Shown one piece after another: positions 45,581 through 54,233 of a stretch of 64,000 bases of DNA; the stretch's first letter is position 1; the number at the start of each line of letters is the position of its first letter. The stretch is from Klebsiella oxytoca (GTDB taxonomy: Bacteria; Pseudomonadota; Gammaproteobacteria; Enterobacterales; Enterobacteriaceae): positions 4,960,001 through 5,024,000 of the forward strand of contig NZ_CP046115.1 of the NCBI RefSeq assembly GCF_009707385.1, in the 5' to 3' direction. The notes under the pieces were generated by a model. It searched no databases. It was not told where the DNA came from and saw nothing but the letters and a program-made list of their open reading frames with translations. The translations under genes were made by a program, and so were the position numbers.

Positions 45581-48286
45581 ATGTTGATTCCGTCTAAATT
45601 AAGTCGTCCGGTCCGCCTTGAACACACTGTGGTTCGTGAGCGACTACTGGCGAAACTTTCCGGCGCGAACAATTATCGTCTCGCGTTGGTCACCAGCCCG
45701 GCTGGATACGGTAAGACCACGCTCGTTTCTCAATGGGCGGCGGGGAAAACTGACCTTGGCTGGTTCTCACTGGATGAAGGCGATAACCAACAAGAGCGTT
45801 TTTCCAGCTATCTTATCGCCGCGATTCAACAGGCTACCGGCGGTCACTGTGCAGCCAGCGAAGCCATGGTGCAAAAGCGCCAGTACGCCAGTCTACCTTC
45901 CCTCTTTGCACAACTGTTTATCGAGCTGGCCGACTGGCAGCGCCCGCTGTACCTGGTGATTGATGATTACCATCTAATCAGCAATCCGGTTATTCATGAT
46001 GCAATGCGCTTCTTCCTCCGCCATCAGCCGGAAAATATGACGCTGGTAGTTCTGTCGCGTAATCTGCCGCAGTTGGGTATCGCCAATCTGCGGGTACGCG
46101 ATCAGCTACTGGAAATTGGCAGTCAACAGCTGGCTTTTACCCATCAGGAAGCCAAACAGTTTTTCGACTGTCGTCTTAGCTCGCCCATCGAAGCAGACGA
46201 CAGTAAAAGGCTATGCGACGATGTCGCCGGCTGGGCCACCGCGCTGCAGCTAATTGCCCTCTCAGCGCGTCAGAACAATACCTCCGCCCATCACTCCGCC
46301 CGCCGACTGGCCGGGATTAACGCCAGCCATCTTTCGGACTATCTGGTTGATGAGGTGCTGGATAACGTTGATTCGCGGACGCGTAATTTCCTGCTGAAAA
46401 GCTCGCTGCTTCGCTCGATGAACGATGCGCTCATCGTCCGCGTTACCGGCGAAGAGAATGGTCAGATGCAGCTGGAGGAAATTGAACGTCAGGGGCTATT
46501 CCTGCAGCGAATGGACGACTCCGGCGAGTGGTTCCGCTACCATCCGCTATTCGGTAACTTCCTGCGCCAGCGCTGCCAGTGGGAGCTGGCGGCTGAGCTA
46601 CCGGAAATTCACCGTGCGGCGGCAGAGAGCTGGATGGCGCAAGGCTTCCCGACGGAGGCTATTCACCACGCCCTCGCGGCGGGCGACGCCAAAATGCTGC
46701 GCGATATTCTGCTTAACCACGCGTGGGGGTTATTTAACCACAGCGAACTGAGTTTGCTGGAACAGTCCCTCGCCGCGCTGCCGTGGTCAAACCTGCTGGA
46801 AAATCCGCGCTTAATACTGCTGCAGGCCTGGCTAATGCAAAGCCAGCACCGCTATAGCGAAGTGAATACCCTGCTGGCGCGCGCCGAGCAGGAGATGGAC
46901 GCGGAAATGGATACCGCCATGCACGGCGATTTCAACGCTCTGCGTGCTCAGGTGGCGATTAACGCCGGGGATCAGGACGAAGCCGAACGCCTGGCGATGG
47001 TCGCCCTTGATGAACTACCGCTGGCCAGCTACTACAGCCGTATCGTTGCAACCTCCGTGCACGGTGAAGTGCTGCACTGTAAAGGCCAGCTGAGTAAATC
47101 GCTGGCGGTCATGCAGCAGACGGAACAGATGGCCCGCCGCCATGATGTCTGGCACTACGCGCTATGGAGCATGATCCAGCAAAGCGAAATTCTTTTTGCG
47201 CAGGGTTTCCTGCAGGCAGCATGGGAAATTCAGGAAAAAGCTTTCCAGCTCATCCGCGAACAGCATCTTGAACAGCTGCCGATGCATGAATTCCTGCTGC
47301 GTATTCGCTCCCAGCTACTGTGGGCCTGGGCGCGGCTGGACGAAGCGGAAACCTCCGCGCGCAGCGGTATGAACGTGCTTTCGTCCTATCAGCCGCAGCA
47401 GCAGCTACAGTGCCTGACGCTGATGGTGCAGTGCTCGCTGGCGCGCGGCGATCTGGATAATGCCCGCAGCCATTTAAATCGCCTCGAAAACCTGCTTGGC
47501 AACGGCCACTACCATAGCGACTGGGTGTCCAATGCCGATAAAGTGAGGGTAATTTACTGGCAGATGATCGGCGACAAAGCTGCCGCGGCAAACTGGCTAC
47601 GCCAGACGCCGAAACCAGAATTTGCCAATAACCACTTTCTACAGAGCCAGTGGCGTAATATCGCCCGCGCGCAGATCCTGCTCGGCGATTTTGATTCCGC
47701 TGAAATGGTTCTCGAAGAGCTAAACGACAATGCCCGCTCGCTGCGTTTGATGAGCGATCTCAACCGCAACCTGCTGCTGCTCAACCAGCTCTACTGGCAG
47801 GCGGGGCGTAAGAGCGAAGCGCAAAAAGCGCTGCTGGAAGCCCTCACCCTCGCCAACCGCACCGGTTTTATCAACCATTTTGTGATCGAAGGTGAAGCGA
47901 TGGCGCAGCAGCTACGCCAGCTGATTCAGCTCAATACGCTGCCGGAGCTGGAGCAGCACCGCGCCCAGCGTATTCTGCGCGATATTAACCAGCATCACCG
48001 GCATAAATTCGCCCACTTTGACGAGAGCTTCGTCGAAAAGCTGCTGAATCATCCGGAAGTGCCGGAGCTGATCCGCACCAGCCCGCTAACTCAGCGCGAA
48101 TGGCAGGTACTCGGACTTATCTATTCCGGCTACAGCAACGAGCAAATCGCCGGCGAGCTGGATGTCGCCGCCACCACCATCAAAACGCACATTCGCAATT
48201 TGTATCAGAAGCTGGGCGTGGCCCACCGTCAGGATGCCGTTCAGCATGCCCAGCGGCTGCTTAAGATGATGGGGTACGGGGTTTAA
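45581..48286 (+). CDS. malT: Maltose regulon activator MalT
   Basis: A 901-residue STAND-class signal ATPase that activates mal genes when bound to ATP and maltotriose. The P-loop is [15 protein letters not shown] near residue 38 and the Walker-B-like [13 protein letters not shown] near 124. The central part is alpha-helical with TPR-like repeats (sensor domain, about 440-800). The C-terminal LuxR-type helix-turn-helix has [20 protein letters not shown] near 832 and [17 protein letters not shown] near 862. Its 3' end overlaps rtcA by four bases. Confidence 0.97.
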
Positions 48287-49302
48287 CTCCGTACCTGAAT
48301 AAGATAGCCGTCGTCGAGCGGCTCGCGGATAAATCTCACCGGCAGAAACTGCTCGACCACCGCGATATTCGTCAGCAGATGCGCTGAGGTTTTCGCCACG
48401 GTAAAAGCGCCTTCCCCCGCCAGCGCCAGCGGTAAAATCAGCTGATCGGCCAGATATTCCCCTACCGCCGCCGTACTTGCCAGATAGCGCGTTGCCTCCG
48501 TTGCCAGCTGGTGCGCGACATTTTCGGCGCTCACGCCTTTGGCGCCAAAGGCAATAAACAATTCCGTGAGATGTTCGCACTCAATGGTCAGTGACAGCGA
48601 GTTTCCCGGCCCGGCTCCGCCTTCCAGCACCTGAACCTTTCTCTCCGCCAGCGGCAGCCAGGACTCCAGCGCTATCACTTCACGCTCGCCGACGTGGTAA
48701 GGAACAGCAGCCAGCAGCGCTTCGGCTGTTATAGCCACCGTTTCACCACGCGTAATCAGCTGTAGTCCGCTCAACGACGCGACCGGCTCTACTTGCGCCA
48801 GTACCGCGCCGCCGCCTGCCGGATAGAAACCGTGGCGCAGCAACGAGGTTTGCTGGTTTATTCCCATCTTCGCCAGCAGCGGTTCCCAGACGCGGCAAAT
48901 AAAATCCGCGCTGGGAGCTGACTGATTATGCGTCCCACCGCTGACTTCCACGCGGGCCGGGCTATCGGCAAACCACAGCGCAGGTAAAATCGTTTGTAGC
49001 ACCAGCATGCAGCTGCCCGCACTGCCAATAGCAAATTTATACGCGCCGCCGTGAACTCTTCCCGGCACAAAATGCAGCCGCTGCGAGCCCAGCTCACCGC
49101 CGCTCACTTCGGCGCTACAGATTTCGGCTGCCGCCCGCACCGCCGTAAGATGCTGGCGCAGAAGACCCGGTTTGGCGCGACCGGCACGAATGCCGGTAAT
49201 TTCAAACGGCTGTCCGGTTATCATCGACAGGCTCAGCGCCGAGCGCAAAATCTGCCCGCCGCCTTCCCCCTGCGCACCGTCCAGCGTAATCATCCTTTTC
49301 AT
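48283..49302 (-). CDS. rtcA: RNA 3'-terminal phosphate cyclase RtcA
   Basis: ATP-dependent enzyme of 339 residues that converts RNA 3'-phosphate ends to 2',3'-cyclic phosphates through adenylylated enzyme. [20 protein letters not shown] near residue 8 and [13 protein letters not shown] near 39 are the family signature. HGFYPAGGG near 158 is also diagnostic. The catalytic histidine fits [14 protein letters not shown] near 309. The middle third (about 175-250) is less like E. coli than the rest. It is the last gene of the rsr-rtcBA unit, six bases after rtcB. Confidence 0.96.
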
Positions 49303-49308
49303 TTTTGG

Positions 49309-50523
49309 TTATCCTTTAACGCACACCACCTGACGCAGGGTATGCACAATTTCCACCAGATCCGATTGCGCGGCCATCACCGCGTCAATGTCCTTATAGG
49401 CCATCGGTATCTCATCGATAACGTCCGCATCTTTACGACATTCCACATGCGCGGTGGCGCGAATCTGATCGGCGACGCTAAACAGCTTTTTCGCTTTAGT
49501 ACGGCTCATGACGCGCCCGGCGCCGTGGCTGCATGAACAGAACGACTCTTCGTTACCCAATCCGCGCACAATAAAGCTTTTCGCCCCCATGGATCCCGGA
49601 ATAATACCGTACTGACCGCGCTGCGCGGATACTGCGCCTTTACGGGTTACAAAGATCTCTTCACCAAAGTGCTGCTCTTTTTGCACATAGTTATGGTGAC
49701 AGTTAATTGCCTCGCTCATCAAGGTAAAGGGCTTAGTGATGATTTTTCGCAGCGCCAGCAGCACGTTTTCCAGCATCGCTTCACGGTTGGCGCGCGCATA
49801 ATCCTGCGCCCAGCCGACAGCCCGAACGTAATCAGCAAAATGCTCGCTGCCCTCAGAGAAATAAGCCAGATCGCGCGAGGGTAAGTTAGCAATATGCTGC
49901 TGCATATCTTTTTGGGCCATTTCAATGAAATAGCTACCAATAGCGTTACCAATACCGCGCGAACCAGAGTGCAGCATTACCCATACCTGCTGCGCCTCAT
50001 CGAGGCAGATTTCGATAAAGTGGTTACCGGTACCCAGCGTTCCCAGGTGCTTATAGTTATTAGTGTTAAGGAAACGCGGATATTTGCTCGTTAACCACTG
50101 GAACTCCGCGTGCAGCGTTGCCCAGTGCGCATCAACGTTCGCAGGCGGATTTTCCCATGCCCCCGCATCACGACGTCCCCGTCCGGTCGTCCGTCCGTGC
50201 GGCACGGCGGCTTCAATCGCACTACGCAGTTCAGCCAGGTTGTCCGGAAGATCCGCCGCCGTTAAGCTGGTGCGCAGCGCGTTCATTCCGCAGCCAATAT
50301 CCACGCCAACCGCCGCCGGGATAATCGCACCCCGCGTTGGGATCACGCTGCCGATAGTCGAGCCTTTTCCGAGATGCACATCGGGCATAACGGCAACGTG
50401 GTTGAAAATAAAAGGCATTTTTGCCGTATTGATCAGCTGCTGACGCGCGTCGTCTTCCACAGGCACGCCTTTAGTCCACATTTTTATCGGGGCGTTCTGG
50501 GTGGTCATTAATTCATAACTCAT
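49309..50523 (-). CDS. rtcB: RNA-splicing ligase RtcB
   Basis: A 404-residue GTP- and Mn-dependent ligase that joins RNA 3'-phosphate or 2',3'-cyclic phosphate ends to 5'-hydroxyl ends. Metal-site and catalytic motifs are present: GVDIGCGMNALR near residue 73 (metal Cys), GTLGTGNHFIEI near 163, and the guanylylated His in SCSHGAGRVMSRTKAKKLFS near 330. It stands between the Y-like RNA cluster and rtcA. In E. coli rtcBA is sigma-54 dependent and controlled by RtcR, and the promoter seen here lies upstream of rsr. Confidence 0.98.
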   Translation of the reverse strand: MSYELMTTQNAPIKMWTKGVPVEDDARQQLINTAKMPFIFNHVAVMPDVHLGKGSTIGSVIPTRGAIIPAAVGVDIGCGMNALRTSLTAADLPDNLAELRSAIEAAVPHGRTTGRGRRDAGAWENPPANVDAHWATLHAEFQWLTSKYPRFLNTNNYKHLGTLGTGNHFIEICLDEAQQVWVMLHSGSRGIGNAIGSYFIEMAQKDMQQHIANLPSRDLAYFSEGSEHFADYVRAVGWAQDYARANREAMLENVLLALRKIITKPFTLMSEAINCHHNYVQKEQHFGEEIFVTRKGAVSAQRGQYGIIPGSMGAKSFIVRGLGNEESFCSCSHGAGRVMSRTKAKKLFSVADQIRATAHVECRKDADVIDEIPMAYKDIDAVMAAQSDLVEIVHTLRQVVCVKG

Positions 50524-50550
50524 TGTCTTTTCTCATTTTATTAATAGGGT

Positions 50551-50672
50551 GGCGACAAGTTTTATGGCGGATCGTTATCAGTATGCTCTATCTGATTGAG
50601 CTACAGAGGCTGGCTCCGGCAGGATTTGCACCTGCAACCTTACTGTCCCATGTAGATTCGCCGGCATTCGCC
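50551..50672 (-). ncRNA. Y-like RNA with tRNA mimic module (distal copy, next to rtcB)
   Basis: About 122 nt on the minus strand. A terminal stem GGCGA/TCGCC continues as CGAATGCCGG opposite CC...TTGTCG, the same core as the two other elements. On top sits a tRNA-like module: T arm with stem GCAGG/CCTGC (619-623 with 631-635, last three digits) and loop TGCAAAT; acceptor-like stem CGGAG/CTCTG closed by a 5-base loop; U8-A9-like TA; and D arm GCTC/GAGC at 50585-50601. This matches YrlA-type bacterial Y RNAs bound by Rsr. The ends are inferred from pairing only. Confidence 0.78.
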
Positions 50673-50682
50673 AGAACAGGGT

Positions 50683-50802
50683 GGCACGACAAAAAGAGGT
50701 GGATCGGCCTGCTCTACCTCTGAGCTACGGAGTCAGACTCCGGCAGGACTCGAACCTGCGACCTGGACCATCATAGGGTGTAGATCCACCAGCATTCGTG
50801 CC
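50683..50802 (-). ncRNA. Y-like RNA with tRNA mimic module (middle copy, YrlA-type)
   Basis: About 120 nt on the minus strand, the best formed of three. The stem GGCACGA/TCGTGCC and GGTGGATC/GATCCACC flank an internal loop with ATGCT opposite TCTTTTTG. The tRNA-like part has T arm GCAGG/CCTGC with the canonical loop TTCGAGT (50743-50759), acceptor-like CGGAGT/ACTCCG (50728-50742) capped by three bases, TA as positions 8-9, and D arm GCTC-AGAGGTA-GAGC (50711-50725). There is no anticodon arm; the Ro-type stem takes its place. The order is T arm, acceptor, D arm, as in known YrlA RNAs. Confidence 0.85.
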
Positions 50803-50812
50803 TTCAGCGCCG

Positions 50813-50876
50813 CGCGACAAATTCATAGCCGGGATGATACGCATCGGGAAAGATGTAATCCCGGCCAGCATTCGCG
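50813..50876 (-). ncRNA. Minimal Y-like RNA element lacking the tRNA module (next to rsr)
   Basis: About 64 nt on the minus strand. CGCGA/TCGCG and GCCGGGAT/ATCCCGGC stems flank the same CGAATGCTGG ... TTGTCG core as the two neighbours, but the apical part is only a loop of about 20 nt. It could be a separate short Y RNA (Salmonella has two Y RNAs, YrlA and YrlB, near rsr) or a processing or structural element of the rsr transcript. The 5' end is uncertain because it begins within about 15 bases of the rsr stop codon. Confidence 0.65.
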
Positions 50877-50889
50877 TCGCGCTGAATAC

Positions 50890-52458
50890 TCATTGCAGCG
50901 TCACGGACCCGATTTCCTCGAGCCAGTGCGCGCTGCCGTAGCGACCGTTAACAAAGTTATCAATCACCGTAAACACCTCGTCGCTAAAACCGCCGACGTT
51001 CAAAATATCGTCCCGCTCCGCCGCCTGGGTGGTGCCGTAAGGCAGCAGATCGATACACACCAGGCGAGCCTGCGGGTTGCGTTTTTTTAGCGCGGCCCAG
51101 CACTCCATAGTTGCGGTCGAGCCATGGCGCGACTTATCAATCCAGGATTCGTTATCCGACACCATGATCACCAGATCCACCCGCGCCCGCTCGGCCAGCA
51201 GCTTGCGCAGCGGCGCGGAGCAGTTGGTGCCGCCGCCGCCGACCGCCGCCAGCTTCTGCGCGTTGCGCATCACCGACTGCCAGGGGTCGAGCGCGACGTT
51301 TACCACATCGCATTCGAACGGCAGCACCCGGGCCTGCGAATGATTACGCAGCACGGCGGCAGCAATCAGCCCGGCCACGTCCACGCAGCGAATTTTGCTG
51401 GTTGCTCCCTGACGATAGCCGGTTATCGATGAGCTCATCGACCCCGATACGTCCGGGCAGACCACCACGTTGCCGCGCAGCTGCGGAACGTTCTCCAGCG
51501 CAAACTCCATCGCGTGTTCTAAAGCATTGCCGATCGCCTGCGGCACGCCGCTTTGCAGGTTGCTCCACGCAGACAGCAGCTGATAGGGATAAACTCTGGC
51601 CTGACGCACCTGCTCCCTGTCCGCCAGCCGCTTCGCCACGCGGGAGGTCAGATCTGCATTCTCAAAAACGCCGTGACGCGCCAGAGTATTCAAATTCATT
51701 CGTAGCGTTTGCCAGCTCATCCGCTGTGCCAGCTGCGCCCACTGTTCAGCACTCAGCGGCAAGTGGGTCAGCAGTAAAAACGGCACATCGGGCAGCGCCG
51801 CGCCATTCACCCCTTCGCGAAACGCCAGCAGCGCGCGCGTTTTCTCCGGCAACAGCGCTTTGTCGCAAGGCTTACCGATTAGCCAGGCGAAAAAAGCCTC
51901 CTGCCATGCAGCCTGCGGACGCGGGTGAACCATTTTGACAACATCCGCGAGAGACGGAGAGTTGCCTGGCGAGGCCTGTAATAAACGCTCTTCGCTGGCT
52001 TCCTGCAGCCAACGCTGGACCAGCTTCTTCGGCCGGGTACCCAGCGAACGCCGCCCGGTGACGCCGCTACGCAGTATCTGCACAAAGTTACGCAGCATCC
52101 GACCGTTGTTAATCACCCGCGCAAACACCAGCGGTAGCAGAGCCGAGCCGCGCGCCGCAAGTAAGGCAGTTAACAGCGCGGGCATATCCTTCATCATTCC
52201 CCGCTCGCGACCATAAATCGCCAGCTGGGCCAAAAAGAGATCGTCGACATCCTGCGCAATAACCAGTACATCATCCAGCTGCGCCTGAGCGCTGGCATAA
52301 AAGGTTTCGTTCATGCAGCCGGTCATGACCATCTGCGCTAAGCGATGACGCGGACTTAAGGCAAAAGCCGCCGCGCATTGGTGATTTTGCGTATCGGCCA
52401 GCGGTGCATTCCGTAACAATGAACGGAACAAAAGTGGATTAGCCATCTGTTTTCCCAT
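50890..52458 (-). CDS. rsr: Rsr, bacterial Ro60 orthologue (TROVE-module RNA-binding protein)
   Basis: A 522-residue ring-shaped RNA-binding protein that holds Y RNAs and, with nucleases such as PNPase, works in RNA processing and decay. The N-terminal two thirds form the helical TROVE/HEAT ring. The C-terminal von Willebrand A domain has a full metal site: DVSGSMSSS near residue 342, the Thr in GGGGTNCSAPL near 412, and MVSDNESW near 435. The frame is open to 52518. The start at 52458 is chosen because the sigma-54 promoter implies transcription from about 52475, ruling out upstream ATGs; 52446 is the alternative. Confidence 0.92.
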   Translation of the reverse strand: MGKQMANPLLFRSLLRNAPLADTQNHQCAAAFALSPRHRLAQMVMTGCMNETFYASAQAQLDDVLVIAQDVDDLFLAQLAIYGRERGMMKDMPALLTALLAARGSALLPLVFARVINNGRMLRNFVQILRSGVTGRRSLGTRPKKLVQRWLQEASEERLLQASPGNSPSLADVVKMVHPRPQAAWQEAFFAWLIGKPCDKALLPEKTRALLAFREGVNGAALPDVPFLLLTHLPLSAEQWAQLAQRMSWQTLRMNLNTLARHGVFENADLTSRVAKRLADREQVRQARVYPYQLLSAWSNLQSGVPQAIGNALEHAMEFALENVPQLRGNVVVCPDVSGSMSSSITGYRQGATSKIRCVDVAGLIAAAVLRNHSQARVLPFECDVVNVALDPWQSVMRNAQKLAAVGGGGTNCSAPLRKLLAERARVDLVIMVSDNESWIDKSRHGSTATMECWAALKKRNPQARLVCIDLLPYGTTQAAERDDILNVGGFSDEVFTVIDNFVNGRYGSAHWLEEIGSVTLQ

Positions 52459-52485
52459 TTCCGTTATTCTCCATGCCATAGCTAT

Positions 52486-52501
52486 TGCAACCGGCGTGCC
52501 A
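52486..52501 (-). promoter_or_regulatory. Sigma-54 promoter of rsr-Y RNA-rtcBA
   Basis: Read on the minus strand, TGGCACGCCGGTTGCA matches TGGCACG-N4-TTGC(A/T) with no mismatch. The expected transcript start is near 52475, 17 bases before the rsr start codon, with GGAG in between. The divergent gene rtcR encodes a sigma-54 activator. Confidence 0.92.
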
Positions 52502-52590
52502 GAAATTAAATAAATCATTAACCATATGATTTTAATGAGTTAATAATTTTTATGTGCATCAGGTCGAAAAAGTCACTGCATGAGAAAAGC

Positions 52591-52634: not shown

Positions 52635-54233
52635 ATGCGTAAAACGGTGGCTTTCGGTTTTGTCGGTACGGTACTGGATTACGTTGGCCGCGGCAGCCAG
52701 CGCTGGGAAAAATGGCGGCCAACCTTATGCCTGTGCCAGCAGGAAACATTGGTCGTTCATCGCCTTGAGCTGCTGTACGACGCCCGTTCGCGCGGCTTGT
52801 TTGAAACCTTAAAGCAGGATATCGCCAGCGTCTCGCCGGAAACGGAGGTCATCGGCGTCGAGATAACCATCCGCAATCCGTGGGATTTCGAAGAGGTTTA
52901 CGCCTGCCTGCACGATTTCGCCCGCAGCCATACGTTCCATCCGGAAGATGAAGACTATCTGATTCATATTACTACCGGCACTCACGTGGCGCAGATCTGC
53001 TGGTTCCTGCTGGCCGAAGCGCGCTATCTCCCGGCACGGTTAGCGCAAACCTCACCGCCGCACAAGAAAGATAAGCCGCACAGCTCCGGCGGCATAACAA
53101 TCATTGATCTCGACCTCAGCCGTTATAACAACATCGCCAGCCGCTTTGCCCAGGAACGGGAAGAAACGCTTAACTTTCTGAAATCCGGCATCGAAACCCG
53201 TAACCAGCGTTTCAATCGGATGATTGAGCAAATCGAGCGCGTCGCGATACGTTCCCGCTCCCCCATCCTGCTCAACGGTCCCACTGGCGCAGGGAAATCG
53301 TTTCTCGCCCGCCGCATCTATGAGTTAAAGCTGGCGCGCCATCAGTTTAACGGCCCGTTTGTCGAAGTGAACTGCGCGACTCTGCGCGGCGATACCGCGA
53401 TGTCGACGTTATTTGGCCATGTCAAAGGCGCCTTTACCGGCGCGCGGGAGGAGCGGGCCGGTCTGCTGCGCAGCGCGAACGGGGGGATGCTTTTTCTCGA
53501 CGAGATTGGCGAGCTGGGCGCGGATGAACAGGCGATGCTGCTTAAGGCCATTGAAGAACAACGCTTTTATCCCTTCGGCAGCGACCAGCAGGTTAGCAGC
53601 GATTTTCAGCTCATCGCCGGAACCGTGCGCGATTTGCGCCAGCTGGTTGCCAATGGTCAGTTCCGCGAGGACCTGTACGCGCGTATCAATCTGTGGACCT
53701 TTGAACTACCCGGCCTGCGCCAGCGGCAGGAAGATATCGAGCCGAATCTCGATTATGAAATTGAGCGTCACGCCGCGCTAACCGGCGACAGCGTACGTTT
53801 CAATACCGAAGCGCGCCGCGCGTGGCTGACATTCGCCACCTCGCCGCAGGCGTCGTGGAACGGCAATTTCCGCGAGCTTTCAGCCAGCGTCACCCGCATG
53901 GCAACCCTGGCGGAAAACGGTCGCATTACGGTAAATACGGTAGAGGATGAGATTGAGCGTCTACGCTACAGCTGGAATGATAACCGCCCTTCAGTGCTCG
54001 ATACGCTCTTAGGGGCGGAGGCGGAAAATATCGATCTGTTCGACCGTTTGCATCTGCAGAACGTCATTGCCGTATGCCAGCAGGCTAAAACCATTTCCGA
54101 TGCCGGACGTCAGCTCTTTAACGTCTCGCGCCTCGGCAAAGCCACCGTCAACGACGCGGACCGGCTGCGTAAGTATCTGGCGCGCTTTGGCCTGAGCTGG
54201 GAAACGCTGAAAAATCAGCACAGCTCCAGCTGA
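52635..54233 (+). CDS. rtcR: RtcR, sigma-54-dependent activator of the RNA-repair operon
   Basis: A 532-residue bacterial enhancer-binding protein. The N-terminal CARF-type domain (about 1-180) is thought to sense an RNA-derived ligand; VGTVLDY near residue 10 and IHITTGTHVAQICWFLL near 111 fit its nucleotide-binding loops. The AAA+ domain has Walker A GPTGAGKSFLARR near 215, the sigma-54 contact loop GAFTGA near 264, and Walker B GGMLFLDEIGELGADEQAML near 281. A helix-turn-helix region ends the protein. It is divergent from rsr and convergent with glpR (19-base overlap). Confidence 0.96.
   Translation: MRKTVAFGFVGTVLDYVGRGSQRWEKWRPTLCLCQQETLVVHRLELLYDARSRGLFETLKQDIASVSPETEVIGVEITIRNPWDFEEVYACLHDFARSHTFHPEDEDYLIHITTGTHVAQICWFLLAEARYLPARLAQTSPPHKKDKPHSSGGITIIDLDLSRYNNIASRFAQEREETLNFLKSGIETRNQRFNRMIEQIERVAIRSRSPILLNGPTGAGKSFLARRIYELKLARHQFNGPFVEVNCATLRGDTAMSTLFGHVKGAFTGAREERAGLLRSANGGMLFLDEIGELGADEQAMLLKAIEEQRFYPFGSDQQVSSDFQLIAGTVRDLRQLVANGQFREDLYARINLWTFELPGLRQRQEDIEPNLDYEIERHAALTGDSVRFNTEARRAWLTFATSPQASWNGNFRELSASVTRMATLAENGRITVNTVEDEIERLRYSWNDNRPSVLDTLLGAEAENIDLFDRLHLQNVIAVCQQAKTISDAGRQLFNVSRLGKATVNDADRLRKYLARFGLSWETLKNQHSSS

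Follow-up and report, generated by a model that had tools for sequence, protein, structure and literature searches.

A YrlA-type Y RNA of Klebsiella oxytoca appears to hold a complete, circularly permuted tRNA shape with an anticodon-like arm

Which part of a tRNA-like Y RNA stands for the anticodon arm? The question is raised by 64,000 nucleotides (nt) of Klebsiella oxytoca DNA (contig NZ_CP046115.1, positions 4,960,001 to 5,024,000; this whole stretch is called the window), where three Y RNA-like elements lie in tandem between the genes for the Ro60-like protein Rsr and the RNA ligase RtcB. A preliminary description of the locus had the Ro stem replace the anticodon arm in two tRNA-mimicking copies. 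That account is incomplete, as copy a has both a Ro stem and an anticodon-like arm, and copy c has a predicted anticodon stem of 5 base pairs (bp). Judged by comparison with related sequences, copy a appears to be a complete circularly permuted class I tRNA shape, sealed at the acceptor end, and in the YrlA variant to which it belongs (class S) the Ro stem looks as if it had been set into the anticodon stem, after nt 28 and before nt 29 in tRNA numbering.

The three elements were identified by an Rfam search in E-value mode over 381 bases, which bears out both their Y RNA identity and the assignment to the YrlA class:

50806..50883, minus strand: YrlB-type Y RNA without tRNA-like module (RF02565, 94.5 bits, E 6.1e-22; fold z-score -3.0)
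50680..50802, minus strand: YrlA copy a (class S), tRNA-like on a Ro stem (RF02553, 78.1 bits, E 1.5e-18)
50546..50674, minus strand: YrlA-like copy c, class L (RF02553, 68.2 bits, E 1e-15)

Copy a exceeds the RF02553 gathering score of 69. Copy c falls 0.8 bits under it and is called YrlA-like; it reaches 99.4 bits with our own model R1, but belongs to the training sequences of R1. The YrlB-type match covers the full model, yet is 2.5 bits under the gathering cut-off of 97, hence YrlB-like. The tandem array on the minus strand was correctly described apart from slightly wider bounds (50546-50883), and the core CGAATGC..GG / TTGTCG and the T, D, and acceptor arms of copies a and c are present in the sequence. 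The TTCRANY-like loop that had been ascribed to both copies holds for copy a (TTCGAGT) and fails for copy c, which reads TGCAAAT and has no U55.

The tRNA imitation, with covariation in relatives, is supported by 25 YrlA-type elements from 12 genomes, both window copies included. Over their Ro stem, T arm, D arm, and acceptor 92.6% of 725 cells are paired (shuffled 78.4%, slid partners at most 44.4%), and 105 cells are changed on both sides (shuffled 32.3). Further pair types (35, shuffled 35.5) are the only one of five measures not exceeding the shuffles. In every one of the 25 elements the acceptor strands find their partner inside the same copy, with 5 to 7 of 7 positions paired. In the window copies these strands are joined through 1 nt and no CCA is encoded. 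ARAGORN finds no unpermuted tRNA gene in the window, and none in 71 unrotated class S elements. With RF02553 and the YrlA crystal structure 6CU1 the window copies share the Ro stem, T arm, acceptor hairpin, and D arm. Neither the Rfam YrlA model nor the literature passages compared show an anticodon-like arm, which may nevertheless be in print elsewhere.

The 20-nt linker of copy a, of which 13 letters fall in an insert of the Rfam YrlA model, is where the copy departs from RF02553: the model has no anticodon-like hairpin, and the class S Ro stem would join between 28 and 29 and not replace the arm. From the linker onward copy a reads as follows:

50767..50779, minus strand: anticodon-like hairpin ACC-CUAUGAU-GGU (tRNA 29-41), 3 pairs and a 7-nt loop at 50770-50776
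50765..50766, minus strand: CC (tRNA 42-43), pairing with GG at 50708-50709 (27-28) by comparative pairing
50760..50764, minus strand: variable-loop-like AGGUC (44-48), with C48 matching G15 of the D loop
50743..50759, minus strand: T arm, loop TTCGAGT, from pair counts on YrlA elements
50728..50742, minus strand: fused acceptor strands, 7 + 1 + 7 nt, 7/7 complementary within the copy
50711..50725, minus strand: D arm, from pair counts on YrlA elements

The loop CUAUGAU has 7 letters, with U33 and A37 present. Since 2 + 3 pairs surround the linker loop, the copy would have a 5-bp anticodon stem with the Ro stem between 28 and 29.

Relatives for a wider comparison were collected with model R1, built from 25 elements and run over 93 sources. 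It gave 298 matches, of which 276 were kept; 8 were dropped in duplicate loci (L103, L107, L120) and 14 outside the rsr-rtcB gap, many of them in tRNA arrays. The 80 named loci are the best 80 of 419 Rsr relatives, and distant taxa are under-sampled. A parser read a T arm in 227 of the 276 elements and T and D arms in 131, of which 129 had a readable CTAC-like mark. By linker length these 129 comprise 71 elements of 19-21 nt, 27 of 13-18, and 31 of 6-11. The 71 are class S, a length cut that was set after the linkers were seen and for which later-found genomes serve as a check.

Most class S elements share one layout between Ro stem and T arm: 3 nt, 7 nt, 3 complementary nt, 2 nt, and mostly a 5-letter variable loop. 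Three Watson-Crick pairs around exactly 7 nt occur in 65/71 elements (letter-shuffled linkers: mean 8, maximum 18), and loops of 4, 5, 6, 8, 9, 10 or 11 nt fit 4/71 at most. When the 3' strands are re-dealt, 48/53 drops to a mean of 16.5 (maximum 26) and 17/18 to a mean of 6.7 (maximum 12). The loop itself is tRNA-like, with Y32-U33-R37 in 57/71 (shuffled mean 6.3, maximum 16); among the 65 hairpin elements C32 is found in 56, T33 in 61, and A37 in 57, and positions 34-36 are variable. Pairing of 27-28 with 42-43, the former being the two letters after A26, is seen in 68/71 (shuffled mean 32, maximum 44). The covariation score of the five stem pairs is 0.528 (shuffled 0.127, slid at most 0.165) in a MAFFT alignment in which the 21-nt rows stand off register. 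Mapped on a tree of 61 Rsr proteins, the nine stem types with full pairing require a minimum of 22 changes, often an A-U to C-G swap at 31-39; for example, the window has ACC/GGU, and its two nearest relatives AUC/GAU. The 61 hairpin loci include 37 from Burkholderiales, 3 from Neisseriales, 2 from further Betaproteobacteria, 2 each from Enterobacterales, Pseudomonadales, and Moraxellales, 1 each from Lysobacterales and Hyphomicrobiales, and 11 unplaced ones. In the later-found genomes 6/9 linkers of class S length fit, or 5/8 when one already in the set is removed. Judged by comparison, class S has the 7-nt loop, the U33 and R37, and the covarying stem of a tRNA, and it may be regarded as a variant of YrlA set apart by an anticodon-like arm.

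Several results weigh against this reading. For the five stem pairs, two of five measures are not clearly above the shuffles: those changed on both sides number 4 (shuffled 3.9) and further pair types 10 (shuffled 8.3, reached by 60/500 shuffles), and within the common register pair 29-41 has no two-sided change. The hairpin is missing from 6/71 class S elements and from 3/9 of the later set. It belongs to the minimum-energy fold of 14/65 elements only, so that energy folding was dropped as proof, and the median cost of forcing it is 0.9 kcal/mol; copy a's own minimum-energy fold lacks it (pair probability in silico 0.26, forcing cost 0.6 kcal/mol). The training set of the search model includes class S copies, with no pairs set in the linker. 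ARAGORN on rotated elements was also given up: 70/70 were positive, but so were 59-64/70 with shuffled hairpins and 56-70/70 with shifted junctions. Finally, loops equal to real tRNA loops number 12/65, with 9.1 expected from shuffled columns, against a set of 74 tRNA genes with 25 anticodons from 14 loci. This is no enrichment, and imitation of particular tRNAs was rejected on this ground.

Copy c would reach the anticodon stem by another route, for which three features were read:

50641..50645, minus strand: CAGUA (39-43), pairing 5/5 with UACUG at 50579-50583 (27-31)
50604..50635, minus strand: T arm and fused acceptor strands, from sequence reading and strand pairing
50585..50601, minus strand: D arm, from pair counts on YrlA elements

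Full pairing of 27-31 with 39-43 is found in 18 of the 27 elements with 13-18-nt linkers, copy c included (mispaired mean 2.2, maximum 7), and such a 5-bp stem is possible in 0/71 class S elements. In the predicted fold of copy c-like elements, the anticodon stem has 5 bp and the Ro stem is joined to its loop. Copy c has T loop TGCAAAT, D loop AATCAGATA, and an acceptor paired 6/7, and its fold z-score of -0.19 means an energy fold no better than shuffled. Despite the acceptor and the weak energy fold, copy c seems diverged rather than plainly decayed.

The tRNA core contacts point the same way for the T + D elements as a group. The 15-48 Levitt pair (G-C or A-U) is present in 122/129 (shuffled mean 79, maximum 95), the T loop starts with TTCGA in 116, TTCAA in 10, and TGCAA in 3, and GG stands in the D loop of 126/129. 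Positions 18 and 55 touch in tRNA, and U55 is the target of TruB, with DusA one of the enzymes whose tRNA modifications serve as a mark of YrlA. The three TGCAA elements are the same three that lack the D-loop GG, and all of them read CAGATA in the D loop: copy c (window 50546-50674, minus strand), its ortholog in relative G297 (L118 5395-5523), and an unrelated element from a Desulfuromonas bin (L049 8686-8819). Because the G55 elements are exactly those without the D-loop GG, positions 18 and 55 appear to have changed together in two lineages.

What such an RNA may do can be proposed from the operon in which it lies. The operon would make Rsr and three Y RNAs, which would be expressed separately, and the Ro stem of each (CGAATGC / TTGTCG) would bind Rsr in this organism, as published passages report for the Salmonella Yrl RNAs. 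Copy a would present, in this order, an anticodon arm, a variable loop, a T arm, a self-closed acceptor stem, and a D arm, with the Ro stem between 28 and 29. Having no free CCA end, it should be neither charged nor used in translation. It could serve as a handle that tethers a protein recognising the tRNA body to Rsr during tRNA damage, and a tRNA-cutting, tRNA-modifying or repair enzyme is a candidate client of the anticodon-bearing class. Copy c would be a second, diverged handle having the anticodon stem and no closed loop, and YrlB would lack the tRNA-like module.

That a whole-tRNA-body RNA tethers Rsr to a protein reading the entire tRNA, anticodon arm included, and possibly to an anticodon-loop enzyme, is what we consider probable; the sealed acceptor and the generic anticodon loop fit a reader of whole tRNAs. 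The sealed end would also suit a decoy or sensor, in which the anticodon-like loop is bait for the anticodon-loop ribonucleases that switch the operon on; once the loop is bound, or cut to leave a 2',3'-cyclic phosphate (which RtcR senses and RtcB reseals), tRNAs would be protected or the response set. The retention of U33 and A37 while 34-36 vary is in keeping with bait, the lack of enrichment for real tRNA loops speaks against it, and YrlA fragments were not detected in Salmonella according to passages of the published account (PMC7790460). The Salmonella result may nevertheless not test class S, and gives no support either, because genome L029 (also G260), which we take to be Salmonella LT2, has linkers of 17 and 7 nt and none of class S length; the missing fragments may stem from a species whose copies have no arm. 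We regard the decoy or sensor as rather unlikely. The handle and decoy readings overlap, and the probabilities given to them need not sum to one. It is unlikely, in our estimate, that a widespread Rsr-bound Y RNA class is a complete uncharged permuted tRNA whose generic anticodon loop acts as nuclease bait or reporter; if true, damage sensing (RtcR), repair (RtcB, RtcA), and decoy would be coupled in one operon.

Other explanations give the linker no such role. The arm might be a drifting remainder from an origin of YrlA where two tandem tRNA genes meet (T arm and acceptor from the first, acceptor and D arm from the second), given that the window's own genome yields its next three YrlA matches where tRNA genes of the same anticodon adjoin in tandem (Lys, Gly, Val; 43.8, 41.3, 30.8 bits) and that a few relatives encode an N-CCA where the acceptor loop begins. 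Drift is not expected to keep three pairs over 22 tree changes together with a 7-nt U33/A37 loop, and a mere relic is judged quite improbable; origin and present function are separate matters, and the part on origin may well hold. The hairpin could instead be a protein-binding motif with no tRNA meaning, as a stem of three pairs is short and folding energy does not select it. We give this a low probability, since the 7-nt loop, Y32-U33-R37, the 5-letter variable loop, and 27-28/42-43 all stand at tRNA positions. Lastly, copy a's D arm might fold with copy c's T arm into an unpermuted tRNA that guides processing: RF00005 spans 50734-50611 on the minus strand with 36.9 bits (cut-off 29), and between adjacent copies 5-6 of the 7 acceptor positions can pair in the window and in five close genomes. 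In five other genomes only 1-2 of 7 pair across neighbouring copies, and the RF00005 match follows from the likeness of the copies. This fold, judged very improbable, was rejected as not conserved and the match taken as a false positive. Other tandem YrlA pairs may give the same false positive.

As to origin, the finding gives YrlA a simple one, and descent from such a tandem tRNA gene junction is put forward as a hypothesis. It would account for the sequence of parts (T arm, acceptor, acceptor, D arm) and for the N-CCA met with now and then. The N-CCA is found in 7/126 elements, 4 of them from one clade, and an encoded CCA was rejected as a general YrlA feature. Tandem tRNA gene junctions are also a source of false YrlA calls.

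Permuted tRNAs have precedents. In the circularly permuted tRNA genes of red algae and archaea, the 3' half lies upstream of the 5' half. Copy a has the same 3'-half-first order, and differs in that its acceptor end is closed, an encoded CCA is rare among its relatives, and the termini carry the Ro stem. The paper on crystal structure 6CU1 reportedly describes a tRNA-like fold with no free CCA end and a kink in the stem corresponding to the anticodon stem. A legend in a published account names 6CU1 (PMC8394870). In the parts of the literature compared, Rsr and YrlA associate with PNPase (PMC8394870, PMC4987338, PMC9879122), and in RYPER, the Deinococcus Rsr-Y RNA-PNPase complex, the Y RNA tethers Rsr to a second protein, as proposed here (PMC8394870, PMC4726728); unlike RYPER, the present proposal has a whole-tRNA handle. 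If the anticodon arm is intact in one class, a direct test of contact between YrlA and anticodon nucleases or repair enzymes becomes feasible; the finding also suggests a correction of the Rfam YrlA model.

The closest known system, as far as the published passages describe it, is the rsr-yrlBA-rtcBA operon of Salmonella Typhimurium, which like the window has RtcR, a sigma-54 promoter, rsr, YrlB, YrlA, rtcB, and rtcA in order (PMC7790460, PMC9879122) and which responds to tRNA cleavage (PMC7790460). Unlike the operon of these accounts, the window has a second YrlA-like copy. In the genome taken above for LT2, the rsr-rtcB gap gives two YrlA matches (108.4 and 72.8 bits, types b and a); its type a copy, with a 17-nt linker, is without the class S hairpin, unlike copy a of the window.

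The surroundings of the elements uphold the description of a sigma-54 operon with an RNA ligase, by the promoter match and by the domain matches of Rsr, RtcB, RtcA, and RtcR. The order on the minus strand is rsr, YrlB-type, YrlA copy a, YrlA copy c, rtcB, rtcA, and rtcR is divergent:

52635..54233, plus strand: rtcR, sigma-54 activator (NCBIfam RtcR 836.5 bits, cut-off 650)
52486..52501, minus strand: sigma-54 type promoter TGGCACGCCGGTTGCA ahead of rsr (consensus match TGGCAC-N5-TTGCW)
50890..52518, minus strand: rsr, Ro60-like protein, open reading frame (ORF) as listed (Pfam vWA_Ro60 67.3 bits, TROVE 31.2 bits)
49309..50523, minus strand: rtcB, RNA ligase (Pfam RtcB 446 bits)
48283..49302, minus strand: rtcA, RNA 3'-phosphate cyclase (Pfam RTC 267.5 bits)

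TGGCAC-N5-TTGCA at 52501-52486 is the sole zero-mismatch sigma-54 match within the window; matches with up to 2 mismatches number 31 (41 expected) and are not above chance. Both Rsr domains exceed the Pfam cut-offs, and the protein is 91% identical to K. spallanzanii Rsr; against the NCBIfam equivalog NF041674 it reaches 70.2 bits and misses the cut-off of 900. The listed ORF starts at 52518, upstream of the sigma-54 site. Because the promoter lies inside this 5' extension, translation probably begins at the residue-25 ATG (52446). Many Rsr relatives align from residues 22-25 only, and some from residues 4-20.

The array was thought unusually rich, which it is not: it is real and correctly named, and ordinary among relatives. 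The 276 elements fall in 90 loci, with one element in 9, two in 18, three in 31, four in 24, five in 7, and seven in 1. At least three Y RNA-like elements thus lie between rsr and rtcB in 63/90 loci, and at least one element with both T and D arms in 82/90. Within the sequence covered, the gene rtcB is downstream of rsr in 86/93 loci and a divergent rtcR upstream in 84/93, some stretches stopping at contig ends. YrlA was found in 9/295 genomes of the source family (2, 2, 3, 2, 1, 2, 2, 2, 2 matches per genome), in 4/20 of the source genus (2, 3, 2, 2), and in 1/394 drawn from the source order, namely the window's own; tandem copies are the rule where YrlA occurs among the window's kin. The element types a, b, c, d, and e have a mean identity of 82-91% across genomes and of 57% (maximum 64%) between types within a genome. 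With identity within types so far above that between them, the copies are separate conserved lines. The window has types a and c, and relative G297 a, b, and c.

Searches beyond these loci gave few matches. E. coli genomes searched by blastn had no match to the elements, and the plasmid search gave one short match, in a like operon carried by a Xanthomonas sacchari plasmid. Phage searches returned four records, two of which are short unannotated pieces resembling host DNA (one inspected). Record L110 (2.2 kb) is labelled Salmonella phage; it holds the last part of rsr, elements like YrlB and YrlA, and rtcB, and is probably mislabelled host DNA. In Enterococcus phage EfsSzw-1 a YrlA-like stretch (L139 2501-2561) lies some 280 nt upstream of a gene for a DUF2828 protein and is possibly part of a phage Rsr/Y RNA pair. 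In Labrys (L087 7610-8682) seven Y-RNA-like matches follow rsr in a row, the weakest with E 0.023, and rtcB was not found within the stretch examined. In L022, L024, L026, L027, and L028 a second hairpin, GGATG-CTTG-CATCC, comes right after the D arm of the first YrlA, and the next element has a T arm only, with a short acceptor-like hairpin.
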